Shown piece after piece: positions 12,400-33,865 of a stretch of 64,000 bases of DNA; the first letter of the stretch is position 1; each line of letters opens with the position of its first letter. The notes beneath the pieces were generated by a model. That model made no database searches, was not told the origin of the DNA, and was given only the letters and a program-made list of their open reading frames with translations. A program made the position numbers and the translations under genes. Source of the stretch: Pedosphaera sp. (GTDB lineage: Bacteria > Verrucomicrobiota > Verrucomicrobiia > Limisphaerales > AAA164-E04); contig NZFL01000011.1 in assembly GCA_002690655.1 (NCBI GenBank), positions 124,247-188,246 of the forward strand, given 5' to 3'.

Positions 12400-12422
12400 C
12401 ATATCGGGATAAGATGATATGT
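12400..12422. promoter_or_regulatory. Operator-like site upstream of metH (shared with metK)
   Basis: The site contains TATCnnGATAAGATGATAT, flanked as CATATC...GATATG to give 6-base inverted arms around a 10-base middle. The same 17 defined bases, in the same orientation, occur at 33843-33865 ahead of metK-ahcY. Its left end lies 50 bases before the metH start codon, a normal place for a repressor site. It also sits in the divergent region with the opp operon. Likely ligand: the SahR-like regulator encoded at 33950-34882 (inference). Confidence 0.65.
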
Positions 12423-12577
12423 AAAATATTTTGGTCCGCGTTCATACCCTAACACTAGAATCACTCTCTTTTTGGTGAAATGTATTGCATTGGAATTCTC
12501 AGAACATGGCGAACTTCATGAAGACCCTATTGACATTTCAGCGGGATTAACGAAATCTGGTGAGACATATTTTTTTG

Positions 12578-14218
12578 ATGATGCTTTCAACAACACGACG
12601 ATTAATGAAGCTTTTTGTATTTTCAGCATTGGTTGGCTTTCTCTTTATTCCCACGGGATGCGGTCCAACTGAAACGAAAGTTCAAAAAGGCAATCGCGAG
12701 CAGGTCCTGCACCTCTCCAATGGTTCTGAACCGGAAAGTATTGACCCTCACATCGTCACCGGGGTTCCGGAGCATAATGTGATCTCTGCCCTTACGGAAG
12801 GGTTGGTCACGGAAGATCCCGTTGATTTACATCCGGTTCCAGGGATGGCTGAGAGTTGGGACATATCTGAAGATGGTACTGTTTACACCTTTCGCCTGCG
12901 CGATAATGCAAAGTGGACAAACGGAGAATCGGTCACCGCCCAGGATTTTGTCCGTTCTTTCCAACGTATCCTGACTCCAAGTTTGGCCTCCAAATATGCC
13001 TACATGCTTTTTGTGATGAAAAATGCCGAACCCTACAACAAGGGAGAGTTGAAAGACTTCTCCCAAGTAGGAGCTCGTGCCATTGATGATCGAACGCTGG
13101 AAATCACGCTCAGCAACGCAGCTCCGTATTTTCTTTCTCTCCTGAATCATTACACGTGGTTTCCGGTTCATTTGCCTACGGTTGAAAAATATGGGAAGGC
13201 GGATGATCGAGGCAATCCATGGACCAAGGCGGGTAATTTCGTAAGCAACGGGCCTTTTCGTCTCAAGGAGTGGCGCATCAGTGATGTCATGATTGTTGAG
13301 AAGAATCCCGATTATTGGGATGCGAACACAGTCAGGCTCAGAGAAATACACTTTTATCCGATTGAGAGTGTCGAAACGCAGGATCGAGCTTTTCGCAATG
13401 GTGGTACGCACAATACCTACGAGATGATTCCTGCGAAAATAGAACAATATCAGAAGGAATCTCCCGAGTTGGTGCATATCGACCCCTATCTAGGTTCATA
13501 CTTTTACAGAATCAATACCCAGGAAAAACCTTTCGATGACGTACGCGTGCGTCGCGCCCTGGCGATGGCTGTTGATAGAGAAAGTATTGTTAAAAACGTC
13601 ACGCGAGGTGGGCAAATGCCAGGAAATTATTTTACTCCTCCCAACACTGCCGGATACACTACCAGAGCGCGGATCCCCACTGATCTTGAAGGAGCAAAAA
13701 AATTGTTGGCTGAGGCTGGGTATCCAGAGGGTAAAGATTTTCCCAAAGCTTCCATCATCTTCAATACCAATGAAAATCACAAAGCCATTGCCGCGGCCAT
13801 TCAGGAAATGTGGAGCAAGCATTTGAATATTGAAGTGGAACTGATTAATCAAGAGTGGAAGGTCTACCTTGATTCCCAACGAAACGGAGATTACTTTTTG
13901 TCACGAGCAGGATGGATCGGTGACTATGTCGACCCGAATTCCTTCATGGACATGTGGACTTCCTGGAGCCAGCAGAACCAAACCGGGTGGTCAACCGATG
14001 CCTATGATGATCTGATCGCGCAAGCGGGCAAAACAGGGGATGCAGAGCAACGCCTTGAATACTTTCAACAGGCTGAAGAAATATTAATGGCAGAGGCTCC
14101 CATCATTCCGATCTACATCTATACCAGAGTCTATCTCCTTGATCCGGCGGTCAAAAATTGGAACCCAACCATACTTGACCATCATCCCTACAAACATCTT
14201 TATCTGGAATCCAACTAG
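12578..14218 (+). CDS. oppA: Oligopeptide ABC transporter substrate-binding lipoprotein
   Basis: About 546 residues; the start is uncertain (in-frame GTG at 12560, ATG at 12578, 12581 and 12605). All choices give a hydrophobic segment ending in IPTGC, a lipoprotein cleavage site, so the protein should be lipid-anchored. The rest is an SBP_bac_5 family binder: HLSNGSEPESIDPH, NVISALTEGLV, GMAESWDISEDGTVYTFRLRDNAKWTNGE, the FDDVRVRRALAMAVDRE segment, and ENPDYWD-like NPDYWDANTV. It captures peptides and delivers them to OppBC. First gene of a complete five-gene operon. Confidence 0.92.
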   Translation: MMLSTTRRLMKLFVFSALVGFLFIPTGCGPTETKVQKGNREQVLHLSNGSEPESIDPHIVTGVPEHNVISALTEGLVTEDPVDLHPVPGMAESWDISEDGTVYTFRLRDNAKWTNGESVTAQDFVRSFQRILTPSLASKYAYMLFVMKNAEPYNKGELKDFSQVGARAIDDRTLEITLSNAAPYFLSLLNHYTWFPVHLPTVEKYGKADDRGNPWTKAGNFVSNGPFRLKEWRISDVMIVEKNPDYWDANTVRLREIHFYPIESVETQDRAFRNGGTHNTYEMIPAKIEQYQKESPELVHIDPYLGSYFYRINTQEKPFDDVRVRRALAMAVDRESIVKNVTRGGQMPGNYFTPPNTAGYTTRARIPTDLEGAKKLLAEAGYPEGKDFPKASIIFNTNENHKAIAAAIQEMWSKHLNIEVELINQEWKVYLDSQRNGDYFLSRAGWIGDYVDPNSFMDMWTSWSQQNQTGWSTDAYDDLIAQAGKTGDAEQRLEYFQQAEEILMAEAPIIPIYIYTRVYLLDPAVKNWNPTILDHHPYKHLYLESN

Positions 14219-14274
14219 TCGTTTGAATGGGGTGAATCACGGAATCCCCTGAGCATCCAATCAACCATTGAGAT

Positions 14275-15192
14275 ATGATTCGATTTATCCTTCGCCGAAT
14301 ACTTCAAACGATTCCTGTATTGTGGGCAGTTGCAACGCTGACCTTTTTCATGTTGCGATTGGCTCCAGGGGGACCATTCGCGGATGAACGTGCGGTCAGT
14401 CCTGCGGTGCAAAAAGCATTGGAAGCTCACTATGGTCTGGATAAACCATTAATCGCCCAATACGGAGAATATCTTTTCAACTTAATTCAGGGCGATTTGG
14501 GCCCCTCCTTCAAGTATCCAGGGCGAACGGTCAACGAAATTATTCAAATAAAATTCCCCAAATCGATGGAACTGGGGATTTACTCAATGTCCATCGCATT
14601 GGTTTTTGGGCTGACTTTGGGTGTGATTGCTTCACTCAAACCCAACTCCTTTTTGGATTATGTGCCTTCCAGCCTTTCAATGGTGGGTATCTGTCTCCCC
14701 ACATTTGTGCTGGGCCCCTTGCTCGTACTCGTGTTTGCCTTGAAATTGAAATGGTTTCCTTACCCCGGTTGGGACGGGCCAGCCTATAAAGTGCTCCCTT
14801 CAGCAACCCTCGGTTTCTTTTATGCGGCTTACATTGCGAGATTGACGCGCGGTGGGATGCGTGAAGTTTTAACCCAGGATTACATTCGAACTGCACGAGC
14901 CAAAGGTGCCGCTGCTCACACAGTGATCTTGCGACATGCCCTGCGGGGCGGGATTTTGCCTGTGGTGAGTTTCATGGGGCCTGCCTTTGCTGGCCTGGTG
15001 GCTGGGTCATTTGTCATTGAGACGATCTTCAATATTCCTGGTCTGGGGAAGGATTTTGTCACCAGTGCTTTCAACCGTGATTACACTATGGTGCTTGGTC
15101 TGGTGGTGTTCTTCGCAGCGCTCATTGTTGTCTTTAACACCATCGTTGATGTAGTTCAGGTATGGCTCAATCCTAAGCTCAAGCTTGAATAG
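14275..15192 (+). CDS. oppB: Oligopeptide ABC transporter permease OppB
   Basis: 305 residues with about six membrane helices. It begins MIRFILRRILQTIPVLWAVATLTF, the typical OppB/DppB first helix, and has the cytoplasmic coupling loop EVLTQDYIRTARAKGAAAHTVI-type (EAA motif with ARAKG) at about residues 198-220 that docks to the ATPase. The ending VDVVQVWLNPKLK is also typical. It forms the membrane channel with OppC. It follows oppA by 56 bases and precedes oppC by 14. Confidence 0.93.
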   Translation: MIRFILRRILQTIPVLWAVATLTFFMLRLAPGGPFADERAVSPAVQKALEAHYGLDKPLIAQYGEYLFNLIQGDLGPSFKYPGRTVNEIIQIKFPKSMELGIYSMSIALVFGLTLGVIASLKPNSFLDYVPSSLSMVGICLPTFVLGPLLVLVFALKLKWFPYPGWDGPAYKVLPSATLGFFYAAYIARLTRGGMREVLTQDYIRTARAKGAAAHTVILRHALRGGILPVVSFMGPAFAGLVAGSFVIETIFNIPGLGKDFVTSAFNRDYTMVLGLVVFFAALIVVFNTIVDVVQVWLNPKLKLE

Positions 15193-15206
15193 AAACGGTT
15201 TTTATA

Positions 15207-16115
15207 ATGGCATCGACTCAACTTAGATCCGAATCGATTAAAGCGCCCTTGCTTGAGCAAGCGGAGCAGGGCCACTCTTTGTGGCAGGATGCCTGGTACC
15301 GCTTGCGTAAAAACCATATGGCCGTTGCTGGCGGGATCTTTATCTCTTTGATGATCCTGACGTCGGCATTTGGTCCGATGCTCGTTCAGTACGGCTATCA
15401 GGAACAAAACCTGGAACTCAGGGAATCGTCCCCCAGTGCCGAGCACTGGCTTGGCACGGACAAGCTAGGAAGGGATCTGCTTTCAAGGATTCTCTATGGA
15501 GGGCGTATTTCACTTACCGTTGGCCTTGTTGCAACAGCCGTTTCATTGACCATTGGAGTTCTTTACGGGACGATTGCCGGGTATTGCGGAGGTAAAACTG
15601 ACGCCGTTATGATGAGGTTTGTCGATATTCTGTATGCACTGCCTTTCACTATTTTCGTCATATTACTGATGGTTTTCTTCGGAAGGGATATAAGGTTGAT
15701 GTTCCTTGCCATTGGGGCAGTCGAGTGGCTGACCATGGCACGTATCGTTCGCGGCCAAGTGCTTAGTCTGCGTAAACAGGAATTTATTGAGGCATGCATC
15801 GCCTTGGGGTTGCCGATGTGGAAAATTATCATTCGTCACTTGGCGCCTAATGTCATTGGCCCAGTCATAGTCTATTCCACGCTTACGATTCCTGCCGTGA
15901 TGCTGCTTGAAGCTTTTCTGAGTTTTCTTGGATTGGGCGTTCAGGAGCCAATGTGCAGTTGGGGGTCTCTCATCAAAGAAGGTGCAGAAATCATGGAGGA
16001 AGCTCCCTGGCTCCTTTTGTTTCCCGGTGTTCTTTTTGCCATGACTTTGTTTTCATTGAACTTTTTGGGAGATGGGCTGCGCGATGCCCTGGATCCGCGT
16101 GCATCCAAAGATTGA
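15207..16115 (+). CDS. oppC: Oligopeptide ABC transporter permease OppC
   Basis: 302 residues. A cytoplasmic N-terminal arm (SLWQDAWYRLRKNHMAVAG) leads into the first helix; then comes the periplasmic signature HWLGTDKLGRDLLSRILYGGRISL, diagnostic for OppC/DppC, several membrane helices, and the EAA loop RIVRGQVLSLRKQEFIEACIAL (about 175-197). The C-terminus FLGDGLRDALDPR is the family ending. Partner of OppB. Only three bases separate it from oppD. Confidence 0.94.
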   Translation: MASTQLRSESIKAPLLEQAEQGHSLWQDAWYRLRKNHMAVAGGIFISLMILTSAFGPMLVQYGYQEQNLELRESSPSAEHWLGTDKLGRDLLSRILYGGRISLTVGLVATAVSLTIGVLYGTIAGYCGGKTDAVMMRFVDILYALPFTIFVILLMVFFGRDIRLMFLAIGAVEWLTMARIVRGQVLSLRKQEFIEACIALGLPMWKIIIRHLAPNVIGPVIVYSTLTIPAVMLLEAFLSFLGLGVQEPMCSWGSLIKEGAEIMEEAPWLLLFPGVLFAMTLFSLNFLGDGLRDALDPRASKD

Positions 16116-16118
16116 ATT

Positions 16119-17101
<983 letters not shown>

Positions 17102-17105
<4 letters not shown>

Positions 17106-18124
17106 GTTTACAGCAAAATTCTTTCCTGAAAATCAGAGGCCTCAAGACCCACTTTCCTGTTGAAAAGGGGATCCTGTTTCGCAAGGTCATTGCAACCGTC
17201 AAAGCTGTTGATGGAGTGGACTTGGATTTGCAGCGAGGAGAAATCCTTGGGTTGGTAGGTGAGTCTGGATGTGGTAAATCTTCATTGGGGCGAACTGTTC
17301 TTCAGCTACTCAAGCCAACAAATGGCAGTGTCCAGCTGGAGGGAAGGGAATTAGTTGGTCTTCGAGGAAATGAATTGCGAGCAGCTCGCAAGGACTTTCA
17401 GATGATTTTTCAAGACCCTTATGCATCCCTGAATCCGCGCATGACTGTCTACGATGCTTTGGCTGAAGCCATTTTGGCTCATCAATTCGTGCCGAAGTCA
17501 GCACTTCCTGAAAAAGTAGCTGAGCTGATGAACAAGGTTGGATTGTCTCCCAGGTTCATAAAAAAGTATCCGCATGAATTTTCCGGAGGTCAGCGTCAGC
17601 GCATAGCTATTGCGCGCGCCCTCGCCGTGGAACCCAAGTTACTTATTGCTGATGAAGCAGTTTCAGCGCTCGATGTTTCCATTCAGGCTCAAATCATCAA
17701 TCTTTTGGCCAAACTTTCTCGTGAAATGAATTTAACGATGATTTTCATTTCGCATGATTTGTCCGTCGTGAAGCACATAGCGGACCGCATTGCCGTCATG
17801 TATCTAGGGCGCATTGTTGAAATTGGCCCTGCGTTAACATTGTTTGATCAACCCCGACATCCTTATACACGTGCCTTGGTGAGTGCTGTTCCTGTTCCTG
17901 ACCCTGATCGGGAACGTGGCAGAAAACGTATCCTTTTGCCTGGTGATCCACCATCACCAATGAATCCTCCACAAGGCTGCACTTTTCATCCAAGGTGCCC
18001 CTACGCGACCGATGCTTGCCAGTCCGAATTTCCCGAATGGAGCGTTGCCGGGGAAGGACATCAAGCAGCCTGCATTCGCTTGGATGCCATACAGCAAAAC
18101 CCGGATACCATGGTCACTTCCTGA
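17102..18124 (+). CDS. oppF: Oligopeptide ABC transporter ATPase OppF
   Basis: 340 residues. Second ATPase of the importer: N-terminal [10 protein letters not shown] start typical of OppF, Walker [10 protein letters not shown]-loop [11 protein letters not shown], signature FSGGQRQR, Walker [34 protein letters not shown], and a C-terminal [14 protein letters not shown] cysteine segment. It ends the opp operon; no clear terminator is seen in the 50 bases before the next gene. Confidence 0.95.
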
Positions 18125-18174
18125 GTCTGTTTGTTTGCTGCAATGCGTAAGGGACTGTAAAATCATTATTTGAC

Positions 18175-20361
18175 ATGATCAATTATTGTCCCCACTGGGT
18201 TTCAAGCGGGCTCGCACTGCGCATCTGTCTCTTCGTCTGTAGCCTCAGTGCAATGATGAATAAGTTGGAAGCTGCCGACTTTCAATCTGCAGATTTACCG
18301 CCTGTGCTTGAATTTACTGATGGCTCTCCAGTGGTAAATTATGAAGATTGGAAGAAGCGACGAGCAGAAATCAAGCAACTCTGGTGTGATACATACATTG
18401 GCCAATTTCCGCACGAAGCCCCATCAATTCAGGCAATACAAATAATCAACCAAAATCAAAGAGGAGATGGGGTGATCGTGAGGAATGTAAGACTGACTTT
18501 TGATACACCAAATCGTGCGGCCTTTGAAATTCGTTTGCTACTTCCCAAAAAAATCAGGGAGTCTGAAATACAAGACCTTCCTTTGTTGTTGACGCAGCCT
18601 CGTCATTATCAGGTTGCATGGGCAGAGGCAGCAGTGGAGCGAGGATACGTGGTCTGTTTTTACCCGGGGGTTGATTATAATCATCGTGAGGAAGCCTTTC
18701 CCGGATATGAAAATGTATGGCGAACCTTTCAAAAGGAATATCCGAATGCAACCTGGTCCTCTTCGCTTGGCATACAGTCATGGCTTGCCAGTCGCTCGTT
18801 GGATTACCTGCTGGGTGACCACTCCGGTTTGCTGATCAACCCTGAAAAGGTTGGAATTATTGGTCATTCGCGTTATGGAAAGCAGTCATTGTACGCAGCT
18901 GCTTTTGATGAACGATTCACTGCTGTCGTTTCAAGAAGCGCGGGCTCTCCAGCTGCAGCTGGGTATCGGTTTACCGGAAGAGATACGTTCATGGAAACGG
19001 TTGTGGATGCACCCTCAGAGTGGGCGTTGCCTTCATTAAAGCGTTTTTTCGGCCGTGAAGATGCATTGCCTGTTGAAAGTAATGGATTGATGGCTTTGAT
19101 AGCTCCTCGCTATTGCCTTCTTCATACTGCCCACAATGACGGAAGTGATCCATCTTTTGCTGTAGAGCGGAGTTATTTGGGTGCAAAGGTAGCGTATCAG
19201 TTTCTGAATGCTCCAGAGAACATCGCTCTGCAATACCGCGGGGGTAATCATAACCCCATCACCAAAGAGCACATTCGCTCCAATCTGGATTGGTTTGATT
19301 GGGCTTTCAAGCGTGGCGATATAAAGCGGTCGGATTTCAAGGAAAAACTACTCCATGATTTCGATTGGAAACAATGGAAAGCACAACAGTCCTCCTCAGA
19401 TTTAATTCCACCCGGAGATATCGCTCCATTAAACGAAAAAGCAGACTGGTTGATGGGAGATATTCCTGAAGGGTTGGAAGGCAGAAATACACATCCGCTG
19501 AGCATCATTGGCGATGACTCAAGAGGAGTGGCGGTTTGGTCGCGGGAAAGATGGAAACCTGATAATGTCAATCGACTTTCTGTTTCATTTGGATCCAACA
19601 TTCAAGGCCAACTGGCTTTCCCGAAAGAAAATCCCCGCCCCTTGCCGATTGTGATATGGCTGCACCCTTTCAATTACTCGCATGGTTCCAATGAAGGTTA
19701 TGGTGTAGAGGGGACAACAATTTATTACCGCCTGGCGCAGGCCGGTTATGCTGTTTTGTCCTTCGATCAATGTGGCTTCGGCGATCGGTTGCTGGAAGGG
19801 GCTTCTTTCTACGATAAGTATCCCCAATGGTCGAAACTGGGGAAAATGGTTTACGATGTTCGATGTGCCCTCAACTTTTTGACCGAAGGTCGTGGAATAG
19901 CCGCCCAGGAGATGCCTCCACTGGATCGTGACAAAATTATACTTGTTGGTTATTCATTGGGAGGAATGGTGGCTTTGCATGCAGGTGCCTTTGATGATCG
20001 AGTCACAGGCATTGCATCTTTCTGCGGTTTTACACCCTTTCGGACTGACTCCGATGAAAAATCAACAGGCGGAATTCGTCGTTGGTGGCAATGGCACGGG
20101 CTTCTGCCCAAACTAGGTTTGTTTGATAGAAATGAAGAGAAGATTCCCTATGATTTTGATGAACTGTTGAAAGCAGCCTCCACGAAGCCCATCCTCATTT
20201 ATTCGGCGCTTCACGACCGGGGAGTGGATTCCGACGAAGTCGAGGCATGCGTGGAGCGTGCAGGGAGCGGGGCCTTGACGTTCATACATGCGGAAGATGT
20301 AAATCGGTTCCAATCAAGTCAGCACAAGGTCTTGATCGATTGGCTGGCTTCTATTGAATAA
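18175..20361 (+). CDS. Exported two-domain esterase: CE15-like plus second alpha/beta hydrolase
   Basis: 728 residues. A plausible signal peptide (about 1-34) is followed by two alpha/beta hydrolase domains. The first (about 40-400) has GHSRYGKQSL near residue 230, the GxSRxGK nucleophile signature of CE15 glucuronoyl esterases, and NHNPITKEH as the likely histidine region. The second (about 420-728) has a LHPF oxyanion-type strand, a GYSLGG nucleophile near residue 591, an ALHDRG acid and a late SSQHKVLIDW histidine, like acetyl-xylan esterase or dienelactone-hydrolase proteins. Both triads look complete. CE15 enzymes split ester links between glucuronic acid and lignin or other groups; the actual substrate here is unknown. 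It converges on the TPR gene. Confidence 0.85.
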   Translation: MINYCPHWVSSGLALRICLFVCSLSAMMNKLEAADFQSADLPPVLEFTDGSPVVNYEDWKKRRAEIKQLWCDTYIGQFPHEAPSIQAIQIINQNQRGDGVIVRNVRLTFDTPNRAAFEIRLLLPKKIRESEIQDLPLLLTQPRHYQVAWAEAAVERGYVVCFYPGVDYNHREEAFPGYENVWRTFQKEYPNATWSSSLGIQSWLASRSLDYLLGDHSGLLINPEKVGIIGHSRYGKQSLYAAAFDERFTAVVSRSAGSPAAAGYRFTGRDTFMETVVDAPSEWALPSLKRFFGREDALPVESNGLMALIAPRYCLLHTAHNDGSDPSFAVERSYLGAKVAYQFLNAPENIALQYRGGNHNPITKEHIRSNLDWFDWAFKRGDIKRSDFKEKLLHDFDWKQWKAQQSSSDLIPPGDIAPLNEKADWLMGDIPEGLEGRNTHPLSIIGDDSRGVAVWSRERWKPDNVNRLSVSFGSNIQGQLAFPKENPRPLPIVIWLHPFNYSHGSNEGYGVEGTTIYYRLAQAGYAVLSFDQCGFGDRLLEGASFYDKYPQWSKLGKMVYDVRCALNFLTEGRGIAAQEMPPLDRDKIILVGYSLGGMVALHAGAFDDRVTGIASFCGFTPFRTDSDEKSTGGIRRWWQWHGLLPKLGLFDRNEEKIPYDFDELLKAASTKPILIYSALHDRGVDSDEVEACVERAGSGALTFIHAEDVNRFQSSQHKVLIDWLASIE

Positions 20362-20388
20362 CAGCCACAAATGACTGCGAGAACGGAG

Positions 20389-21249
20389 TTATTCGTTCGT
20401 ACCGTTGTCAATAAGCTCTAATCGCTGATTTGCCTTTTCAGCAGCAGAAGTCTCTGGATATTTTTCAACCAAATCCCTTAGAAGTTGGATGGCCTTCTCA
20501 GGCTTATTCATGGGTCCTGAATATAGGTTGGCCAAATGAATTGCAGACCATCCCCAACGATTTGGTGTTAGCTTTTGAGTCAGTATTTCCTCGTATTCAA
20601 GTGCGGCCGCTAGTGGGTTTTTGAGGTCTTTTTCGTAAATTTCAGCAATGCGGATCGCTGCGTGCTGCTGCTTTGGGTTTGCGGCAAGGTATTCACGCAA
20701 AATGCGAACTGCCTCGAGAAAATCGCCTCGAGCCCATTCCTGCTCAGCTGATTCATACAGATCCCCGTCTTCCATTCCGCCACCATCATCGTTGTAAAGG
20801 GAATCTAAGACGCGACTGGCAGAATATTGCGAAAAATCATAAGCTGCGAGCAATCCCAGAGCGATCAAAGTGATGACAAAGATTCCCCCATAATATCCCA
20901 TTCGGTTGGGACTCTCCGTAGTTGAATGAGATTTTTTTTCCGCGTTGGAAGATGCTACTTGAGCGTCTGCTGCGTTCACTACTTCAACCTCTTCAGATAT
21001 ATCTGGAATGTTAGACTCTGGATCGGCTTTCTCATCAGGCGCTGTAGGTTCTACCTGTTCACTCAATGGGGCCTCGTTTACAATGACAGCGTTAGCATAC
21101 CCAGAATGATCAATATCATCCATACTCCGAGCGGCAGCTATAGCATTACTTTTTTCTGTAACTCTGTTGAAATCTGTAAGGAAGGCCTTACCAGAAAACA
21201 GCAGGCAGACCGAAAGAAGAATGTAAGCTATTAATTTAATGGCCTTCAT
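20389..21249 (-). CDS. Membrane protein with C-terminal TPR repeats
   Basis: 286 residues. Hydrophobic N-terminus (about 5-23, signal or anchor), an acidic and serine-rich linker (about 45-115), a second hydrophobic helix (YYGGIFVITLIALGLLAAYDF, about 119-139), and then about 130 residues of TPR-like helices: WARGDFLEAVRILREYLAANP, AAIRIAEIYEKDLKNPLAAALEYEEIL, AIHLANLYSGPMNKPEKAIQLLRDLVEKYP. This resembles outer-membrane-assembly or divisome-type TPR scaffolds, but I recognise no specific family. It is read alone, 88 bases after the cytochrome-like gene that precedes it on the same strand. Confidence 0.75.
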   Translation of the reverse strand: MKAIKLIAYILLSVCLLFSGKAFLTDFNRVTEKSNAIAAARSMDDIDHSGYANAVIVNEAPLSEQVEPTAPDEKADPESNIPDISEEVEVVNAADAQVASSNAEKKSHSTTESPNRMGYYGGIFVITLIALGLLAAYDFSQYSASRVLDSLYNDDGGGMEDGDLYESAEQEWARGDFLEAVRILREYLAANPKQQHAAIRIAEIYEKDLKNPLAAALEYEEILTQKLTPNRWGWSAIHLANLYSGPMNKPEKAIQLLRDLVEKYPETSAAEKANQRLELIDNGTNE

Positions 21250-21337
21250 GAATCGATTTGATAACTTATATTAATCATTTGCTCTGACCGGTGAAAGGTT
21301 TTAATAACCTCGGAAAAGTCAGATCTAACAACGGTGT

Positions 21338-23062: not shown

Positions 23063-23066
23063 GCTT

Positions 23067-23732: not shown

Positions 23733-23752
23733 TTTAAGGAGTTGTTTGTTAG

Positions 23753-23786: not shown

Positions 23787-23800
23787 GGTGGGCGTGAAAA

Positions 23801-25258
23801 TTAAACGTCTCTCACAGAAGGTACCTGGAATTCAGGGTTGTTCGGATCTTTCAGGAGCCTGTTGGCTTCTGCAGCATGTGCACCAACGTGTTTTTCAGTA
23901 AGCGGATCGAATGTGAGCCAGGGGCCGACAACGTATTCGTTTTGATCCTCAGGCAGGCCAACGCCATTTTTCATGACATCATGCAGTTTCAGGAAATGTT
24001 CAGCGGCATCTGAGTTATCACCGAATTTTCCGGCTTTCTCATTGAATGGAACTTTTGATCCAAGACGGTATGAATTATTGATCAAATGCCCCATGACACA
24101 CGCATAATGCGCATCGATGACATTGCCATTTGCCATATCTGGATCCCCGCTGCGACATGCTTTTATGAAACTCCCCCAGTTACCGCCGGGCGTGACATCT
24201 CCATCAGGTATCTCCAGATCTTGACCTTCTGAACTTCCGGCAGAGTAATATTTATTGCGAATGATTTTTCCACCATCTTCGAAGTAGTATTCATTTTCAA
24301 CCTGACGCTGGTAACCATCATAGTTGACATTTCGAACATTAAAGAAAACCTGCTGTCCGTTGGGATACTCAGCCAAACCGAACATCGTGTTCGGAGTTTC
24401 TCCCTGATCATTCCACTGGAAGCGTCCGCCAATAGCCATGGCTCGAACAGGGTGTGTCTGATCCTGGTCAAGAGCCCATCTTGCAACATCCAACTGATGA
24501 GTTCCCTGATTGTTTAAATCACCGTTCCCTGTAGACCAAAACCAATGCCAATCGTAGTGCACATAGTTATTGTGAAATTGATGAATGACAGCCGGGCCGC
24601 GCCATAAATTCCAATCAACATTGGATGGAGCGGGGGAGGGGAGTTCAAAACCAATGCCACCGCGAGGTTTGCAACAATATCCGTATGAGATTTTCAGTTT
24701 ACCATATTTGCCTGCCTGAATCTGTTCATGTAAACCGGCGATTTTGGCATCACTGCGTCTTTGGGTTCCATGTTGAATGACAACTCCATACCGTTTCTGA
24801 GCCTCTACCGCTACACGGCCTTCCTCAACGTCATGGCTCAATGGTTTTTCAACATATACATGTTTTCCCGCTTGTGCACCCCAGATGGTCATCAAGGAAT
24901 GCCAGTGATTAGGGGTTGCAATTGAAATGGCATCGACAGTTGGGTCATCGAGTGCTTGGCGAATATCTTTAATGCCCTTGCACTTGTATTTTCCTTGTAC
25001 CTTGTCATTGACATAATCGACGACACTGCCACGGACTCTCTCATCTACATCAGCCAGATATGCAATTTCTACATTGTCCTGCCCAAGCCAACCACCTATA
25101 TGGCTTCGTCCTCGGCCGTTGAGTCCTGCTACTGCGATTCGCAGACGATTATTTGCGCCAATAGCTCTTCCAGAGGCTTTTGTTCCGCTTAAAAGCACGG
25201 TGGCCCCTGCGGCAAGTGAAGTTTGTTTCAAAAACTGACGTCGATTAAATCCGTTCAT
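23801..25258 (-). CDS. Gfo/Idh/MocA family oxidoreductase, Tat-exported
   Basis: 485 residues from the start at 25258 (MNGFNRRQFLKQTSLAAGA), which places a twin-arginine signal at the N-terminus; the longer frame from 25288 is rejected. The NAD(P)-binding fold IAVAGLNGRGRSHIGGWL is followed by the family lysine in YVEKPLSHD and the HQLDVARWAL segment of the substrate domain. These enzymes oxidise or reduce sugars, inositols or glycosides and in Verrucomicrobia/Planctomycetes are numerous and often exported with bound cofactor. The substrate cannot be told. Divergent from the sulfatase. Confidence 0.92.
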   Translation of the reverse strand: MNGFNRRQFLKQTSLAAGATVLLSGTKASGRAIGANNRLRIAVAGLNGRGRSHIGGWLGQDNVEIAYLADVDERVRGSVVDYVNDKVQGKYKCKGIKDIRQALDDPTVDAISIATPNHWHSLMTIWGAQAGKHVYVEKPLSHDVEEGRVAVEAQKRYGVVIQHGTQRRSDAKIAGLHEQIQAGKYGKLKISYGYCCKPRGGIGFELPSPAPSNVDWNLWRGPAVIHQFHNNYVHYDWHWFWSTGNGDLNNQGTHQLDVARWALDQDQTHPVRAMAIGGRFQWNDQGETPNTMFGLAEYPNGQQVFFNVRNVNYDGYQRQVENEYYFEDGGKIIRNKYYSAGSSEGQDLEIPDGDVTPGGNWGSFIKACRSGDPDMANGNVIDAHYACVMGHLINNSYRLGSKVPFNEKAGKFGDNSDAAEHFLKLHDVMKNGVGLPEDQNEYVVGPWLTFDPLTEKHVGAHAAEANRLLKDPNNPEFQVPSVRDV

Positions 25259-25601
25259 GGTTTCAATAAGTGTTTTAATACAAATCACCCATGGCGTGGG
25301 GTGTTTTGTTCATTAGTATGAGTTCACTTGAAAATTAATTGAGAATCGTTGAGTTGTAAATGGTTTGTTTATCTTAGGATTTGGTCGTTTTTGGCTTTCT
25401 TGCCGGTCAAGGCAAATAAGATCAGCTATCGCATGTGCTCGTGGCTGCAAAAATAGTTTTCTGGACAGGAAAAAGCGCGAGTTCGAACGCGCTCCATGCC
25501 CTTGCTCATGATTTAGCGGATAATAAAACCGATTCTTGTTGAAATCCTCTCGTCCGATTTCTTTATTGTGGTAAAAAGAATTCTTGAAAAAGTTTTAGAC
25601 A
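25259..25601. other. 343-base divergent intergenic region
   Basis: No gene. It must hold the divergent promoters of the oxidoreductase and the sulfatase. A GC-rich hairpin lies at 25474-25493 (arms AGCGCG and CGCGCT, loop AGTTCGAA), about 110 bases before the sulfatase start, with no T run after it. Otherwise nothing seen. Confidence 0.5.
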
Positions 25602-27080
25602 ATGAAACAACATCATATTCTCCCTTGGTTAATCGCCTCCTTCGCATTGATGATTCAGGCATCAGCGAAAGATCGTCCCAACATTTTGCTCATTCTGGTA
25701 GACGACCTCAAGCCTGCTCTAGGTTGTTATGGTGATCCACTGGCAAAGACTCCAAACATAGATCGTCTTGCCGCAAGTGGGTTGCGGTTTGAGTCGGCCT
25801 ACTGCAATCAATCCGTCTGTGCACCCTCCAGAAATAACCTCATGCTGGGAAGCCGTTCCACTTCAATCGGCATTTATGGTTTGGGACAGCATTTCAGGGA
25901 TGTATTCCCCGAGGCTGTGACAATGCCTCAGTATTTCAGTCAGCATGGGTGGATCTCTGCTTGCATGGGAAAAGTGCTGCACACTGGCCACGGAAATCAT
26001 GATGATGTTCATTCCTGGGATCATCCTACCTATCTCGACAAAGTCGTCGAATACCTCAAACCCGAAAGCACTGAAGGCGGGCAATTGACTCGTGAAGAGG
26101 CATATTTCACAAACCAGAAACTGGGGCAAATTCGATCGCTACCCAAAGGCTATGCATGGGAAAGCGCTGATGTGGGAGACGAAGCTTATGCAGACGGCCG
26201 CATAGCCGCCAAAGTTATAGAGCGCCTGAAAACACATCAATCTGAAACAAACTCCCCTTTTTTTATCATGGCGGGCTTTGTGAAGCCGCATCTTCCTTTC
26301 ACTGCTCCCCAAAAATACTGGGACATGCATGATCCCGCTGATTTCCCGGTCATGCCTTCTCAAACAACCCCTGAATGGGCTCCAGCATTCGCTGGGAAAC
26401 GGGGTGGTGAAATTGTCAACTATGCGCCTTTGACCGTTGAGAATATCAAGGAAATCACCATCCAGCGAAAATTAATGCACGGTTACTATGCAGCGGCTAG
26501 TTATGCGGATGCACAGATTGGTAAGGTGTTGAATACTTTGGATGAACTGAAGCTTGGTGATAACACCATCGTGGTTCTTTGGGGTGATCATGGGTGGCAT
26601 TTAGGGGATCATGGATACTGGACCAAGCACACCAATTACGAGCAAGCCAATCGTATTCCTATTATTGTTCGTGCGCCGGGTTTGACGATCCCTGGCAGCT
26701 CAACAAAGCAGCTGGCTGAAACCGTGGATATTTACCCGACCTTGGCAGAACTTGCAGGTCTGATGCGTCCTCAGGGGCCTCAGCCTATTGATGGAGTGAG
26801 TCTGTTTCCAGTTCTCAAAACCCCCTCTACTTCCGTTCGCGATCACTCATACCACTGTTACCCCAGGGGAAAACGTATAGGGCGAGCCATTCGAACCGCA
26901 CGCTATCGAATGGTCGAGTGGAAGCAGCCTGATGCATCGTCGGAAACAGCAGTCTACGAACTTTATGATTACGCAGAAGATCCAGGTGAAACGCGTAATC
27001 TAGCACAAGCCAGACCGGAGGCTCTAGCCGAATTGAGAAGCATTCTCGCGAGTCACCCTGAAGCGTCTGAAAGAAAATGA
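25602..27080 (+). CDS. Exported sulfatase (iduronate-2-sulfatase type)
   Basis: 492 residues, signal peptide about 1-22. N-terminal metal site PNILLILVDDLKP and the sulfatase signature CAPSR (cysteine at residue 73), converted to formylglycine by a maturase not in this window. Further family segments: GKVLHTGHGNHDD, GFVKPHLPFTAPQKYW, DHGWHLGDHGYWTKHTNYE and the C-terminal LYDYAEDPGETRNLA. The pattern fits iduronate-2-sulfatase-like enzymes, which in marine Verrucomicrobia remove sulfate from algal polysaccharides (inference). The stop overlaps the start of the next gene by four bases (ATGA), indicating coupled translation. Confidence 0.93.
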   Translation: MKQHHILPWLIASFALMIQASAKDRPNILLILVDDLKPALGCYGDPLAKTPNIDRLAASGLRFESAYCNQSVCAPSRNNLMLGSRSTSIGIYGLGQHFRDVFPEAVTMPQYFSQHGWISACMGKVLHTGHGNHDDVHSWDHPTYLDKVVEYLKPESTEGGQLTREEAYFTNQKLGQIRSLPKGYAWESADVGDEAYADGRIAAKVIERLKTHQSETNSPFFIMAGFVKPHLPFTAPQKYWDMHDPADFPVMPSQTTPEWAPAFAGKRGGEIVNYAPLTVENIKEITIQRKLMHGYYAAASYADAQIGKVLNTLDELKLGDNTIVVLWGDHGWHLGDHGYWTKHTNYEQANRIPIIVRAPGLTIPGSSTKQLAETVDIYPTLAELAGLMRPQGPQPIDGVSLFPVLKTPSTSVRDHSYHCYPRGKRIGRAIRTARYRMVEWKQPDASSETAVYELYDYAEDPGETRNLAQARPEALAELRSILASHPEASERK

Positions 27081-30000
27081 GGGTTTTTATGAATACCGTA
27101 AGTTTGTTCATGCATTTAAAGTTCTTGAAGGCGTGTCTCTTTGGTTGGGGAAGTTTTCGGAATCACTTTTTTTTAGTTTTGTTGTCAGGCCTGATAGTTG
27201 GTGCATGCACGCATCAGGCCGGATCGGTATCTTTGTTTGATGGTTATTCTCTCGATAGGTGGGAGGGAGATACTCAGAATGTGTGGCGCGTTGAAAATCA
27301 AACCATCGTGGGAGGTTCTCTGGACGGTAACTCTCGGAATGAATTCCTTTCAACGAAGCAATCGTATGATCATTTCCGATTAACTCTCGAATATAAATTG
27401 ATCGGTACCGAAGGCTTTGTGAATGGGGGTGTTCAGTTTCGCAGTCGTCGCATTAGTGATTCCCCAAATGAAATGGTTGGTTACCAAGCTGATATTGGTG
27501 CGGGATGGTCAGGAAGTCTTTATGACGAGTCTCGAAGGAAAATAATGCTCGCCGAGGCCGATAAGCAACGCATGGGGCGCATTGAGAAACCTGGTGAATG
27601 GAATCACTACGAGATCCTTGCTCTTGGAAATCAGGTAAAACTTTTTCTGAACGGTTCCCACATGATTACCTACGTGGAATCAGATCAGGCGATAGAACAA
27701 AATGGACTCGTTGCTTTGCAGATCCACGGTGGATGCAAGGCTGAGATTGCTTTTCGAAATATCATGATCGAATCCTTGCGTTTATCAGATACTCCAACAG
27801 AAGGTGTGATTCTCAATCGCTTTGGAAGTGGACAGCCGGTGGATTCAAAACCACGGTTTTCACATGGAGAATTTTCGCCTGCTGAAAACGAAATAGTAGT
27901 CACGATTGGTCAGGAAAACTTCGTCAGGGAACAGAAATCCGGTGCTTTTGAATCACGAATGATTGCTGGATTTCCTGCAGCAAACTTGCGTTTTCGTTCC
28001 ATGGCATGGGAAGGAGACACCGTTTACGAACAATGGCGTGAACTGAATTTTGGGAGCTGGGCAGATCAGTTGGAAACAGTGAAAGCAGGCATACTCATCG
28101 TTCAATTCGGGCAGATGGAGGCCTTTGATGGCGTGGGACGATTAACCGAATTCAAGACTGCCTATCATCGTCTGCTGGATCAATTCGCACAGCAGACGCG
28201 TCGAGTGATCCTGGTTTCTCCCATGCCGTTTGAAAAGCCGCTCGCGAGTCACGCTCCTGATTTGAGAAAACGCAATCAAGATGTGGCTTCTTATGCAGGC
28301 GTTGTTCAGGACATTGCTACGGAGCGCGGTTTGATCTTTGTGGATCTGTTGAGTGCTATAAACCAAGGGAAAGCAATGGGGCGCATTCCAAAATTGACCT
28401 CGGACGGGATTCATCTGACGGCCGCGGGACTCGAAGTAGTCGGGAAATTGATCGCCAATGCGCTTGGTGCTAAACCGTATGCCGTCAATGATGAAGCCGT
28501 TCTGAGGGAATCGGTAATCGCCAAAAATAAGTATTGGTTTGATTCCTGGCGTCCTGCGAACTGGTCTTTTTCCTATGGTGATCGTGTGTCGCAGATGTTT
28601 GGAAGAGGAGCTGCTGGCAGACCCTCGTTGAGAGAAAGTTTTGAACAACGTCGTCCAATGATTACGGCTCTGGATGATTTTATTCATCAGGTTTCCAATG
28701 GCAGTGCGTCTCCTGTTCCTACCACGCTCAATAAAACAGAAAAAGTCATCTCCCCGGAGGCGATGACTCCGGAAGAACAATTGGCGACATTTGAAATGGC
28801 TGAGGGTTTTCAGGTCAATCTTTACGCCTCGGAACGTGATGGCGTGGTGAACCCTGTTCAAATCGCATGGGATGAAAAGGGGAGGCTATACGTGGCATGT
28901 TCGCCGTCTTATCCGCAGAACCTGGCAAGTCGTCCCCCCTCAGACTACATACTTGTTCTTGAGGATAAGGATCGCGATGGAAAAACAGATCATTATTGGA
29001 GGTTTGCCAGCGGGCTCAATATGATCCAGGGATTAGAGCCTGGTGGAGATGGACTTTATGTATGTGATTTTGACCAGTTGATTTACCTTCGAGATGAGGA
29101 TGGTGATCTGAGGGCAGACTCACGCGAGATTCTTTATTCTGGTTTTGGTATCGGTGATACACATCAATTGGTGAATTCTATTTCTCACGGCCCGGATGGA
29201 AGTCTATGGTTTACGCAAGGATTGCATGCCATGTCTTTGGTGGAAACTCCTTGGGGGCTTACACGTCTTGATCGTGCAGCTGTTTGGAGGTTGCAGCCCA
29301 GAACTCTCCGCCTGGAAGGGTTCTTTGGTGGAGGAATGGCTGGTGCGAACTGTTGGGGAGTAACCTTTGATGATTTTGGCCAGGTCTTTCACAAGACAGG
29401 CGATCGTCCTCACGGGTACTGGACTGTCCCTGGCATGGTCCGTGGTGCCAGCCCCATTGGGAGCGGTTCACGGGAGTCCGCCAATCAATCTTATTCCAAC
29501 TCACCGGAACAATACCATTCGGTCGGCGCCATGTTCGAGACATCGCCCAAGACCACGTCGATCGATATTGTCGGTACGAAAGCCATGCCAGAGCACATGC
29601 AGGGTGCCGCATTGATCGGAGGCTATTTCGGATCGGTCGTGGAACTGCATCAATTCAATGATGATGGAGCGGGTTTCAGAACCACTCAATTACCCAAAGT
29701 CATGCGTGCCTCGAACAATGCCTTCAGGCCGGTTGACGTCAGCATGGGGCCGGACGGTGCCATGTATCTTGCTGATTGGTACAACCCGGTGATCGGGCAC
29801 TATCAGGCAAGTTATGCTGACCCCAAGCGCGATAAACATCACGGACGCATTTGGCGGATAGCTTCTACAAACAATACCCCAGTGCAAGCACCTGATCTGG
29901 CAGACATGGATCTGTCAGAGTTGCTTGTCCAGTTGGAATCACCTGAACGATGGACACGGTATCAAGCCAAGCGCTTACTTTATTATCGACCTACCTCCGA

Positions 30001-30862
30001 GGTCCTGATGGCGACAGATGCCTGGGTAAACACTCATTTGGGTGATTTATCGAAGCCGGAATCCTGGATGATTGAATTGCTAGGTGTTTACCAGGCTCAT
30101 GAAACGCCGAGGCCAGCATTGCTAGGGCGTATGCTGGAAGCATCTGATTACCGCGTTCGTGCCTACGCCGCTCGCGCCCTAGGTGGTTGGGCAGAACGAT
30201 TGCCACAAACCCGGGACTGGCTCAGGAAGGCTGTTCAAGACTCACATCCAAGAGTGCGTCTGGAAGGGGTAGTAGCCTGTAGTTATCTCCCATCACCTGA
30301 TTCTGTCACAATCGCGACTTTGGCTTTGCTACATCCAATGGATCGGTTTCTAGATTACGCACTTCGACAGAGTGTTCGTGCCCTTCAACCTTTATGGGAA
30401 TCTCCCTGGAATAAAGGTGAATTAAGATTTACTTCAACAAAACAACAAGCATATCTGAAAGACCTTGTCGGAAATCCCCCTGTTGCCCCGAGTCAAGGTG
30501 CGATACTCTATGAACAGGCATGCCTTCCATGTCATCAACCAGAAGGGAAAGGTTTGGCTGGCATTTATCCCTCTCTTGCAGAAAGTGACTGGATCAACGG
30601 TGATCCTGACCGCTTGATTCGCATTGTGCTGCATGGTCTTTCAGGTCCCATCGAAGTAAATGGTAAGCTTTTTCAAAGCGAGACTGACAATCCCATGCCT
30701 TCATTCGGTGGCTTGAAAGACGAACAAATTGCATCTCTGCTGACTTTTCTGCGGAAGTCTTTTGGCAATGATGCCGGCGCGATCAACGCCGACTCGGTTC
30801 GCAACGTGCGCTTGCTCACGCATGGGCGCATAGATCCATGGACAGCGCTTGAGCTGAATTGA
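27077..30862 (+). CDS. Giant lipoprotein: DUF1080, SGNH-like, PVC dehydrogenase, HEAT and cytochrome c domains
   Basis: 1261 residues. An N-terminal hydrophobic segment ends in VGAC (lipobox near residue 44). Domains in order: DUF1080 (about 50-230, SVSLFDGYSLDRW start); a SGNH-hydrolase-like domain (about 270-480) that keeps DGIHLTAAG but has TIGQEN where GDS is expected and FGQMEAF for the GxND block; a PVC-type membrane-bound dehydrogenase beta-propeller (about 565-935: GFQVNLYASE, VACSPSYPQ, MGPDGAMYLADWYNPVIGH); HEAT-like repeats (about 945-1120); and cytochrome c with CLPCHQ near 1148 and a PMPSFGGL methionine. Likely a lipid-anchored redox enzyme on glycans, coupled to the sulfatase. 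ATG at 27089 is an alternative start. Confidence 0.85.
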   Translation: MRVFMNTVSLFMHLKFLKACLFGWGSFRNHFFLVLLSGLIVGACTHQAGSVSLFDGYSLDRWEGDTQNVWRVENQTIVGGSLDGNSRNEFLSTKQSYDHFRLTLEYKLIGTEGFVNGGVQFRSRRISDSPNEMVGYQADIGAGWSGSLYDESRRKIMLAEADKQRMGRIEKPGEWNHYEILALGNQVKLFLNGSHMITYVESDQAIEQNGLVALQIHGGCKAEIAFRNIMIESLRLSDTPTEGVILNRFGSGQPVDSKPRFSHGEFSPAENEIVVTIGQENFVREQKSGAFESRMIAGFPAANLRFRSMAWEGDTVYEQWRELNFGSWADQLETVKAGILIVQFGQMEAFDGVGRLTEFKTAYHRLLDQFAQQTRRVILVSPMPFEKPLASHAPDLRKRNQDVASYAGVVQDIATERGLIFVDLLSAINQGKAMGRIPKLTSDGIHLTAAGLEVVGKLIANALGAKPYAVNDEAVLRESVIAKNKYWFDSWRPANWSFSYGDRVSQMFGRGAAGRPSLRESFEQRRPMITALDDFIHQVSNGSASPVPTTLNKTEKVISPEAMTPEEQLATFEMAEGFQVNLYASERDGVVNPVQIAWDEKGRLYVACSPSYPQNLASRPPSDYILVLEDKDRDGKTDHYWRFASGLNMIQGLEPGGDGLYVCDFDQLIYLRDEDGDLRADSREILYSGFGIGDTHQLVNSISHGPDGSLWFTQGLHAMSLVETPWGLTRLDRAAVWRLQPRTLRLEGFFGGGMAGANCWGVTFDDFGQVFHKTGDRPHGYWTVPGMVRGASPIGSGSRESANQSYSNSPEQYHSVGAMFETSPKTTSIDIVGTKAMPEHMQGAALIGGYFGSVVELHQFNDDGAGFRTTQLPKVMRASNNAFRPVDVSMGPDGAMYLADWYNPVIGHYQASYADPKRDKHHGRIWRIASTNNTPVQAPDLADMDLSELLVQLESPERWTRYQAKRLLYYRPTSEVLMATDAWVNTHLGDLSKPESWMIELLGVYQAHETPRPALLGRMLEASDYRVRAYAARALGGWAERLPQTRDWLRKAVQDSHPRVRLEGVVACSYLPSPDSVTIATLALLHPMDRFLDYALRQSVRALQPLWESPWNKGELRFTSTKQQAYLKDLVGNPPVAPSQGAILYEQACLPCHQPEGKGLAGIYPSLAESDWINGDPDRLIRIVLHGLSGPIEVNGKLFQSETDNPMPSFGGLKDEQIASLLTFLRKSFGNDAGAINADSVRNVRLLTHGRIDPWTALELN

Positions 30863-31092
30863 CTTTCAAGTCTGACCGTGGCAGCCACAAGGCGAGCAGT
30901 CCCAGATACTGCGGGCTTGGTTCGCCTGTATTGATGACACGGATGAACGAATGAATCCCTGATGGGGGTGACTCGTGAGCGCAAGATACTTTTAGGAAAG
31001 AAAGGGGCGGGGTAATTTTTGTTTGTCTCTTTCATTTTCATGGATGCATTGCTGTCGATCAGGTCGGTAAATGATTGGGATCCAGTATCACA
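30863..31092. other. Intergenic region with a nested stem-loop
   Basis: Between convergent genes. At 30890-30927 an outer stem (AGGCGA with TCGCCT) encloses an inner one (GCAGT with ACTGC). It has no T run, so it is not a clear terminator; it may protect the 3' end of the preceding long mRNA. Nothing else seen. Confidence 0.35.
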
Positions 31093-31123
31093 CAAAAAAG
31101 GCGGCAAATAAATTTGCCGCCTT
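31093..31123 (-). terminator. Intrinsic terminator of metK-ahcY
   Basis: A 12-base perfect stem (AAGGCGGCAAAT with ATTTGCCGCCTT) with a two-base centre is followed on the minus strand by a run of T. It lies 27 bases beyond the ahcY stop. Confidence 0.93.
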
Positions 31124-31150
31124 CTAGAATATTGTTTTTAAAACTAATTT

Positions 31151-32581
31151 TTAGTAGCGATAGTGGTCTGGCTTGTAAGGGCCCTCAACTGAAACTCCGA
31201 TGTAATCGGCTTGATTCTTGCTCAGAGTGGTCAGGTTCACACCCAGTTTGGATAAGTGCAGTCGTGCAACTTCCTCGTCAAGTGCCTTGGGCAAAACATA
31301 AACGCTGGGCTCGTTGGTATCCCGTTTTTCCCATAAATCAATCTGTGCCAGCGTTTGATTCGCAAAACTAGCTGACATGACGAATGACGGGTGCCCTGTG
31401 GCACAGCCAAGATTCACAAGACGGCCTTCTGCCAGCATGAAAATGGATCGACCATCTTTCATGAAATACTGATCAACCTGAGGTTTGACGGTGACCATTT
31501 TCACGTCCGGATGGTTGTTCAATTTATCTACCTGTATCTCATTATCGAAATGCCCAATGTTACAGACGATGGCTTGATCTTTCATGCTCAGCATATGGTC
31601 CAAGGTAATCACATCTTTATTCCCAGTCGTGGTTACATAAATGTCTGCTCGTCCCAATGTTTCTTCTACCGTTGTTACCTCGAAACCCTCCATCACGGCT
31701 TGGAGAGCATTGATGGGGTCAATTTCCGTAACAATCACTCGGGCACCGAATCCACGCATCGATTGTGCACAGCCTTTACCGACATCACCATAACCAATGA
31801 CACAGACTAACTTGCCGGCGACCATGACGTCTGTGGCTCGTTTGATTCCGTCGGCAAGAGATTCTCGACATCCGTACAAATTGTCGAATTTGGATTTGGT
31901 AACAGAATCATTGACATTAACAGCTGGTATCAGAAGAGAGCCCTCTTGATGCATCTTAACCAAACGATGTACTCCTGTGGTTGTCTCTTCGGAAACACCT
32001 TTCCAATCCTTGACAACTGTATGCCACTTGAGCGGGTCCTCGGCATGGACTTTCTTCAAGAGATCCTTTATGACCTGTTCCTCGGCGCTTTCAGAAGGGC
32101 TGTTGACCCAGTCGCTGCCGTTTTCCAACTCGTATCCTTTGTGAATCAAAAGTGTCGCATCACCACCATCGTCCACGATCAATTGAGGGCCTTTGCCATC
32201 TGGATGAGTCAGTGCCTGATAAGTACACCACCAGTATTCTTCGAGTGTCTCTCCTTTCCAGGCAAACACTGGGAAGTCCGCCTCAGCAATGGCTGCGGCA
32301 GCATGATCTTGAGTTGAGAAGATGTTACAACTAGCCCAACGGATGGAGGCGCCAAGATCAGCAAGTGTTTCAATTAATACAGCAGTTTGAATGGTCATGT
32401 GCAGCGATCCTGTGATACGCACATCCTTCAAAGGTTTGCTGGATGCGTATTTTTCACGGATAGCCATTAAGCCGGGCATTTCTTTCTCGGCAATGGTGAT
32501 TTCTTTTCGACCCCATTCTGCTAGTGAAAGGTCGGCGACTTTGAAGTCTCCGGTTTTGGCTTGCTCTAATGTTTCGCTCAT
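31151..32581 (-). CDS. ahcY: Adenosylhomocysteinase
   Basis: 476 residues, normal for bacterial SahH with the 40-residue insert. Conserved: N-terminal [30 protein letters not shown]; catalytic segment [21 protein letters not shown] (lysine and aspartate of the active site); NAD site [26 protein letters not shown]; and C-terminus [10 protein letters not shown]. It splits S-adenosylhomocysteine to adenosine and homocysteine, removing the product inhibitor of methyltransferases. It follows metK by 37 bases and ends at a strong terminator, so it shares the metK promoter and operator. Confidence 0.97.
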
Positions 32582-32618
32582 ATTTTCAAGTTATTTCGTA
32601 TTTAAAAAATGCTATCGA

Positions 32619-33800
32619 TCAGGATTTCACTGCTCTTTTCAGGGCGGCAGCCTTGTCAGTGCGTTCCCAGGTGATTGTTTTTGTATCGTCTACTTTGCCA
32701 AAGTGGCCGTAGTTAGTGGTGGCAGAGAAGATAGGACGCAAAAGCTTCAACTGTTTGACGATGTCAGCTGGCTTGAAGCTGAAGACTTTCTCAACGGCTT
32801 CGGTAATTTTGGCTTCACTGACGGTTCCTGTGCCGAAAGTATCCACGGTAACTGAAACCGGATCAGGATAGCCTATCGCGTAGGCAAACTGGACTTCACA
32901 TTTTGTAGCCAGTCCAGCGGCGACAACATTCTTGGCTACATAACGTCCCATGTAGGCAGCACTCCGATCAACCTTACTTGGATCTTTTCCGGAGAATGCT
33001 CCTCCGCCATGACGTCCCATGCCACCATATGTGTCGACAATAATTTTTCTACCTGTTAATCCCGCATCGCCTTGTGGGCCGCCCACGACGAACCGGCCGG
33101 TGGGATTGATAAGATACTGGGTGTTCTTGTTCAGCAATTTTTTCGGCAGCACTTTTTGAATAACATTCTTCACAATGAAATCATGGATCTGTTTGTGGGT
33201 AACTCCGTCCGTGTGCTGTGTGCTTACCACAACACTCGTTACTTCTACAGGCTTGCCGTTCTCGTATCGGACAGAGCACTGTGATTTGGCGTCAGGACGC
33301 AACCATTTAGCCTTGCCACTCTTCCGTATGCGTGTCAACTCACGCCCGACGCGGTGAGCATACATCACTGGAGCAGGCATGAGTTCATCTGTCTCGTCAC
33401 AGGCGTAACCAAACATCAATCCCTGATCACCTGCGCCTTGTTCATCCGTAGCCTTGCCCTTGGCAGCTTTGGCGTCGACACCTTGCGCAATGTCGGTGCT
33501 CTGCGTCGTGAGATAATTGTTTATGAACACATGATCTGCATGGAAAACATCGTCGTCATTCACGTATCCGATACTTCGTATTGCCTCGCGAACGACCTCA
33601 TTGTAGTCGAATTTGGCTTTGGTGGTTATTTCACCGCCTATGACGACCACATTACTTTTGACAAAGGTTTCACATGCGACACGACTTTTTTTGTCCTGTG
33701 CCAGGCAGGCGTCCAGTATTGCGTCCGATATGGTGTCGCAGACTTTATCAGGATGCCCTTCGCCTACGGATTCAGATGAAAAGATGTAGTTATTACTCAT
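32619..33800 (-). CDS. metK: S-adenosylmethionine synthase
   Basis: 393 residues. Typical Met[26 protein letters not shown] at the N-terminus, [12 protein letters not shown] (phosphate-binding region), [21 protein letters not shown], and [22 protein letters not shown]. It makes S-adenosylmethionine from methionine and ATP. Upstream partner of ahcY. The start codon is 43 bases from the operator-like site that also occurs ahead of metH, and 149 bases from the divergent regulator gene. Confidence 0.98.
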
Positions 33801-33842
33801 GATTAATGTGACTCAAGTTCATTACGTCCTAACACATATTGA

Positions 33843-33865
33843 CGTATCTTGATAAGATGATATAA
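33843..33865. promoter_or_regulatory. Operator-like site between metK-ahcY and the SahR-like gene
   Basis: It contains TATCnnGATAAGATGATAT, with inner symmetric half-sites ATCTT/AAGAT around GAT and outer TATC/GATA arms. It matches the site upstream of metH at 17 defined positions and in the same orientation. It sits in the 149-base divergent region, 43 bases from the metK start and 85 from the regulator start, so one site could control both and give autoregulation. Confidence 0.7.

Follow-up and report, generated by a model that had tools for sequence, protein, structure and literature searches.

What does one short sequence do ahead of two separate sets of methyl-cycle genes? The question is raised by a 64,000-nucleotide stretch of DNA from Pedosphaera sp. 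(Verrucomicrobiota; contig NZFL01000011.1, positions 124,247 to 188,246), referred to below, at its whole length, as the window. In it the sequence TATCnnGATAAGATGATAT stands upstream of metH and again between metK-ahcY and a divergently transcribed gene for an ArsR-type protein with a methyltransferase domain. A sequence-only reading of the window had proposed that the two copies form a shared operator of an S-adenosylmethionine (SAM) cycle regulon, and the distribution and conservation of the sites described here point to such a regulon. We consider it highly probable that the repeat to which this sequence belongs is the operator of the ArsR-methyltransferase protein, a SahR-like regulator that is presumably a repressor and is predicted to release DNA on binding S-adenosylhomocysteine (SAH). 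The outcome is a proposed methyl-cycle regulon across one order of Verrucomicrobiota, open to testing.

A 12-2-12 repeat ahead of metH and metK-ahcY

The copy ahead of metH (window 12402-12420) and that ahead of metK-ahcY (33845-33863) are exact matches to TATCnnGATAAGATGATAT on the + strand, present where the sequence-only reading had placed them in ranges wider by two flanking bases on each side. Because metH and metK-ahcY both lie on the - strand, the motif has the same orientation relative to the genes at either locus. This part of the earlier description stood, while the distances to the start codons, given there as 50 and 43 bases, were measured as 51 (metH, ATG at 12350) and 44 (metK, ATG at 33800). 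The genes were assigned by NCBIfam profiles: metH (8640..12350, - strand; NF007024, 2024 bits), for which the mechanical open reading frame start is the GTG at 12377, metK (32619..33800, - strand; TIGR01034, 553 bits) and ahcY (31151..32581, - strand; TIGR00936, 632 bits).

Genome-wide (4,083,318 bases in 35 contigs, 87% complete), these two are the only exact matches to TATCnnGATAAGATGATAT. There were none with one or two mismatches and 18 with three (one being an overlapping half of the metH site), and the reversed control pattern gave no match. The copies are therefore not a chance pair, which agrees with the earlier judgement that a chance match was improbable. At up to three mismatches the window holds three matches, where shuffles average 0.15. 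Two are the copies already described, and the third, on the opposite strand and overlapping the metH copy, supplies the second half of a palindrome.

The motif as originally noted covers only the centre and right arm of a longer element, a 12-2-12 imperfect inverted repeat found at both loci. Before metH (12395..12418) this operator-like 24-bp repeat reads ATCAACATATC-GG-GATAAGATGAT, with no mismatch to ATCNNCNNATCNNGATNNGNNGAT, and in the interval between metK and the regulator gene (33838..33861) it reads ATTGACGTATC-TT-GATAAGATGAT, with one mismatch; both are kept in relatives. The outer and inner ATC/GAT triplets of the repeat make up two overlapping ATC-N10-GAT units.

To follow the repeat beyond the window we used 58 genomes (the window genome and 57 relatives), scoring sites as an 18-mer out of 14, with a cut-off of 11 that was chosen after the scores had been seen. 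The best 30 of 34 metH matches at E<=1e-60 were profiled (the other four score 11-12), and within 300 bp upstream 27 of the 30 regions reach at least 12 of 14, compared with 3 of 600 shuffles. In their profile, TATCwTCwTATC-nn-GATATGTTGATT, each of the four triplets is kept in at least 29 of the 30 regions; aligning every region at its best match to the pattern tilts the profile toward it. The profile has the 12-2-12 imperfect inverted form that, in the available part of PMC8790569, is typical of the binding sites of ArsR/SmtB proteins.

A strict pattern, TATCNNGATNNGANGATA, matched 58 times in the 58 genomes, against once for its reversed control. By labels assigned by hand, 39 of these sites lie at metK, 14 at metH, one at metF (G043), one at metE (G033, a genome with no metH match at E<=1e-60) and three elsewhere. 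Few matches thus fall at unrelated genes (55 of 58 are at metK, metH, metF or metE), in keeping with the regulon first put forward. The three others (one within a SIR2-like frame, one roughly 300 bp ahead of msrA and one 268 bp from rtcB) are probably due to chance, as is a match of 17 bases within a cadherin-like frame of G002. A looser core, TATC-N10-GATA, proved too unspecific for building a regulon: its palindromic matches in the genome, the three met sites included, number 49, against 11 for the control.

The sequence-only reading had also counted metF among the likely targets, and here the data went the other way. We read 30 of 56 metF genes, one of them with only 32 bp upstream, as a negative control from the same genomes; a score of 12 was reached in only two of the 30 upstream regions, and the metF of the window genome has no site upstream. 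As a general target metF was therefore rejected. No Rfam family matched at gathering score in the window, nor did any match at eleven loci of relatives and the window genome, and on this basis a riboswitch or other RNA at metH or metK was ruled out.

The ArsR-methyltransferase gene and its co-occurrence with the site

The candidate regulator is encoded divergently from metK (33950..34882, + strand) as a protein of 310 residues with an ArsR helix-turn-helix (HTH) domain and a methyltransferase domain (Pfam HTH_5 and Methyltransf_11). This is the architecture of SahR, which joins an ArsR-type HTH to a domain of the SAM-methyltransferase type, and the window genome holds one ArsR-methyltransferase match at E<=1e-30. 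The AlphaFold model consists of a winged helix and a class I methyltransferase domain (mean predicted local distance difference test score, pLDDT, 86; predicted template modelling score, pTM, 0.61; weak at 117-127). The 50 Foldseek matches listed are methyltransferase folds or related ones, with template modelling (TM) scores no higher than 0.51 when taken over the whole query, and the first is Rv2258c with SAH. Residues D152, L153, G154, G156 and G158, together with D175, are invariant in 27 homologues; these motif I residues and D175 would fit SAM/SAH binding, in general terms only. The named near-identical relatives of the protein belong to Verrucomicrobiota.

A homologue of the regulator (E<=1e-30) is found in 50 of the 58 genomes, window genome included, and one further genome, G001, has an 80-residue piece cut at a contig end; phylum-wide, at E<=1e-25, the count is 56 of 145 genomes. 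The metK upstream region could be read in 53 genomes. All 50 with the regulator gene have a metK site (score 11-14 of 14) and none of the three without it does (scores 8, 9 and 10), giving a Fisher p of 4e-5 that ignores relatedness. Those three, G035, G039 and G057 (L214-L216), also have no Rfam riboswitch upstream of metK. The metK site is also present in G011, G012, G016, G041 and G053, all among the 50, where the regulator gene lies away from metK; it is thus the presence of the regulator, and not mere adjacency, that the site follows. Neither metK nor the regulator was found by our searches in G017, G026, G037 and G044, perhaps owing to assembly gaps. The conservation upstream of metH and metK that the sequence-only reading had suggested looking for in relatives is thus found, and its choice of the ArsR-methyltransferase gene as candidate regulator is favoured by the pattern at metK.

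An ArsR-type SAH regulator of methionine-cycle genes has already been described in Proteobacteria. According to the excerpts available of PMC4239095, SahR belongs to the ArsR family, responds to SAH and controls sahR, ahcY, metH, metF and metK through a 20-bp palindrome. The system proposed here shares with it the ArsR HTH, an autoregulatory position, ATC-N10-GAT units, an occasional metE and, as the conserved site positions suggest, the core targets sahR, ahcY, metK and metH. It differs in its host phylum, in its 24-bp 12-2-12 repeat with a central ATCnnGAT, and in that metF is not part of the core. Since neither the 20-bp operator nor core control of metF was found, we call it SahR-like and not SahR. 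A second comparison, made by description and not by motif letters, is with SamR of Xanthomonadales, a distant SahR homologue: in the same excerpts its site at met genes is a palindrome of 24 bp, with ATC-10 nt-GAT common to SamR and gamma-proteobacterial SahR sites, and a regulon that differs in including metB, metE, metF, metX2 and hom. The SmtB/ArsR metalloregulators have the winged-helix family and the 12-2-12 operator geometry in common with our case (PMC8790569, same part), whereas here a methyltransferase-type domain is fused on and the setting is one of methionine-metabolism genes.

Of two SahR-like proteins compared, one from Sinorhizobium (L210), encoded beside metF by a gene of 1023 bp (the printed length of Ensifer aridi sahR is likewise 1023), is 28% identical to the window protein, and one from Leptospira (L213), encoded beside ahcY and metH, is 34% identical; the two are 29% identical to each other. 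Palindrome-like ATC-N10-GAT sequences stand just upstream of both genes (ACATAAACATATCTTTATGT in Sinorhizobium, GATATCAAGATATCTTGATATC in Leptospira), in the arrangement that PMC4239095 describes as shared by SamR and gamma-proteobacterial SahR. The accessible passages of the comparative SahR papers (PMC4239095, PMC5343134) deal with Proteobacteria, and the word stem Verrucomicrob is absent from them. Among the paper titles listed by a literature search none was about a methionine regulator, and absence from print is not claimed. If our interpretation holds, SahR-type control would extend from Proteobacteria to another phylum. Three Acidobacteria (L053, L054, L055) also have ArsR-methyltransferase proteins, at 36-37% identity, with an ATC-N10-GAT of their own, e.g. 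ATCTGTGAATGTAGAT, directly before the start codon.

Promoter layout and predicted control

In the interval between metK and the regulator gene the repeat is bound up with two opposed promoter-like sequences. The one directed toward the regulator gene, TTGACG-16-TATAAT (33839..33866, + strand; 11 of 12 consensus bases), encloses the operator, and the one directed toward metK, TTGACG-16-TATCAT (33857..33884, - strand; 10 of 12), has its -10 within it. Against these two, shuffles yield 0.9 such sites, but the boxes are conserved in relatives: the GTCAA of the metK-directed promoter is kept in 31-33 of 36 per position, and of 49 regulator upstream regions 36 have the operator directly after TTGAC or TTAAC. 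As both sequences enclose or overlap the operator, one bound dimer could block both, a layout that shows how a single operator can serve two overlapping, opposed promoters. Toward metH there is a weak promoter-like sequence, TTTACA-16-TATGTT (12398..12425, - strand; 9 of 12 consensus bases), that also overlaps the operator. Divergent from metH lies a gene for an OppA-type peptide-binding protein of the ATP-binding cassette (ABC) class (window 12560-14218), so that the metH operator is in a shared intergenic region.

We infer both the sign of regulation and the effector, and the latter is predicted, by analogy with SahR, to be SAH. At low SAH, a bound dimer would lie over the -10 of metK-ahcY and over the spacer in the promoter of its own gene, and with its action at metH would keep the cycle low. 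SAH filling the methyltransferase-type pocket would cause the protein to leave the DNA, and its build-up would thereby derepress metK-ahcY, metH and the regulator gene, upon which SAH would be hydrolysed and homocysteine remethylated.

Several points weigh against this account. It rests on the comparison of sequences, with binding and expression being predictions; the effector is carried over from SahR, and SAM or another ligand may act in place of SAH; the protein may also have methyltransferase activity; and the identity to SahR-like proteins is no higher than 28-34%. The genomes counted are related and not independent, and the post hoc cut-off of 11 is reached by 20 of 600 shuffles. G037 and G044 have metH sites though no regulator was found, but their regulator locus may be missing from the assemblies, because metK was not found there either. 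The pattern also weakens in the wider class, where the metK upstream region scores at least 11 in 9 of 11 genomes of the same class and in none of three that are more distant. Among 29 same-class regulator loci read, the 23 without metK alongside have no site upstream (best scores 7-10), and of the six with metK alongside four score 11 or more. In the class-level relatives L258-L268, metK is unlinked to the regulator gene and the operator-like repeat, seen in 9 of 11, stands before TTGC, a possible -35 box.

The 23 loci without a site are what one might cite for the motif being the operator of another transcription factor, with the ArsR-methyltransferase gene merely sharing a promoter region with metK. 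We regard this as quite improbable, given that all 50 regulator-bearing genomes carry the metK site, even those in which the gene lies elsewhere, against none of the three regulator-free ones, and that 12-2-12 repeats are typical of ArsR/SmtB proteins in the part of PMC8790569 cited above.

Two further difficulties arise at metH. The overlapping promoter-like site of the window genome is no better than chance (one found against 0.7 in shuffles), and the TTG...TA pair that 19 of 30 regions have conserved immediately after the operator would place the operator upstream of the -35. More precisely, TTG lies 5-7 nucleotides past the repeat in 21 of the 30 regions, against at most five at other offsets, and 19 of these have TA at promoter spacing; by eye, TTGC occurs at similar spacing before metK of the class-level relatives. 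The protein might accordingly activate metH from just upstream of the -35 while repressing metK-ahcY and itself. This strikes us as unlikely, though with some chance of being right: in the window genome such a promoter would start transcription almost at the start codon, and the promoter-like site that scores best there is the one that overlaps the operator, itself a match at chance level.

SAM-I riboswitches and the third genomic site

New here, and an unexpected link, are a third site in the genome and similar elements ahead of SAM-I riboswitches. With one mismatch allowed, ATCNNCNNATCNNGATNNGNNGAT gave 154 matches in the 58 genomes against one for the control, and 13 of these loci, plus two more, were opened. 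The matches in the window genome are those at metH and metK, one on contig C4, and an identical stretch on C23 and C25. The last pair was discarded as coding, having 500 of 500 flanking bases identical and lying inside a 637-residue frame whose start is DnaK-like by eye. The C4 site is 6 nucleotides before a SAM-I riboswitch (RF00162, 82.7 bits) that leads thrC, the gene for threonine synthase.

Across the survey there are 39 SAM-I riboswitch matches in 38 of 58 genomes, one of them with too little upstream sequence. Of the 38 readable, 27 have a 12-13 of 14 match located 6-13 nucleotides ahead of the aptamer, compared with 3 of 760 shuffles; since the loci are homologous, these sites come close to a single observation. 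The element is missing in G035 and G057, the two regulator-free genomes that have a switch, and, despite a regulator, in G001, G008, G011, G016, G020, G023, G033 (two loci) and G054, while G017 has it though no regulator was found. Caution is also due because the third triplet is CAT, not GAT, in 18 of 28 aligned loci, and because part of the conservation is accounted for by a TTGACA promoter, itself conserved, and by a small RNA hairpin. The hairpin, seen on contig C4 (L272:3434-3593) and in relatives, is CCGTT/AACGG between repeat and riboswitch, or TCGTT/AACGA, by eye a compensating change.

That promoter and hairpin, together with the overlap of the repeat with promoter boxes at metK, are the grounds on which the conserved sequence could be taken for a promoter or leader RNA only, with no operator. 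We give this very little credence: the sequence is missing at metK of the three regulator-free genomes and at metF in 28 of 30 regions, and neither metH nor metK gave a match to an Rfam family.

On the reading that the repeat is the operator of the SahR-like repressor, a site 6 nucleotides before the riboswitch means that the thrC transcript would answer to SAH at the promoter and to SAM in the leader RNA, the operator-like repeat adding DNA-level control to the SAM-I riboswitch (RF00162) already present. This suggests one transcript under putative SAH control at the DNA level and SAM control at the RNA level. The fuller proposal, to which we assign somewhat less than an even chance, is that in this order the thrC leader is guarded twice, with the SahR-like repressor reading SAH at a promoter-overlapping operator and the riboswitch reading SAM, so that the threonine/methionine branch point would be set by the SAM/SAH ratio and not by either metabolite alone. 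Should the riboswitch-linked sites be bound, a single mRNA would let the cell sense both terms of the methylation ratio, one at the level of DNA and the other at that of RNA. Divergent from the riboswitch-thrC unit lies a short MetE-like methionine synthase gene (L272:2347-3348, - strand), and the third operator may therefore also face this gene.

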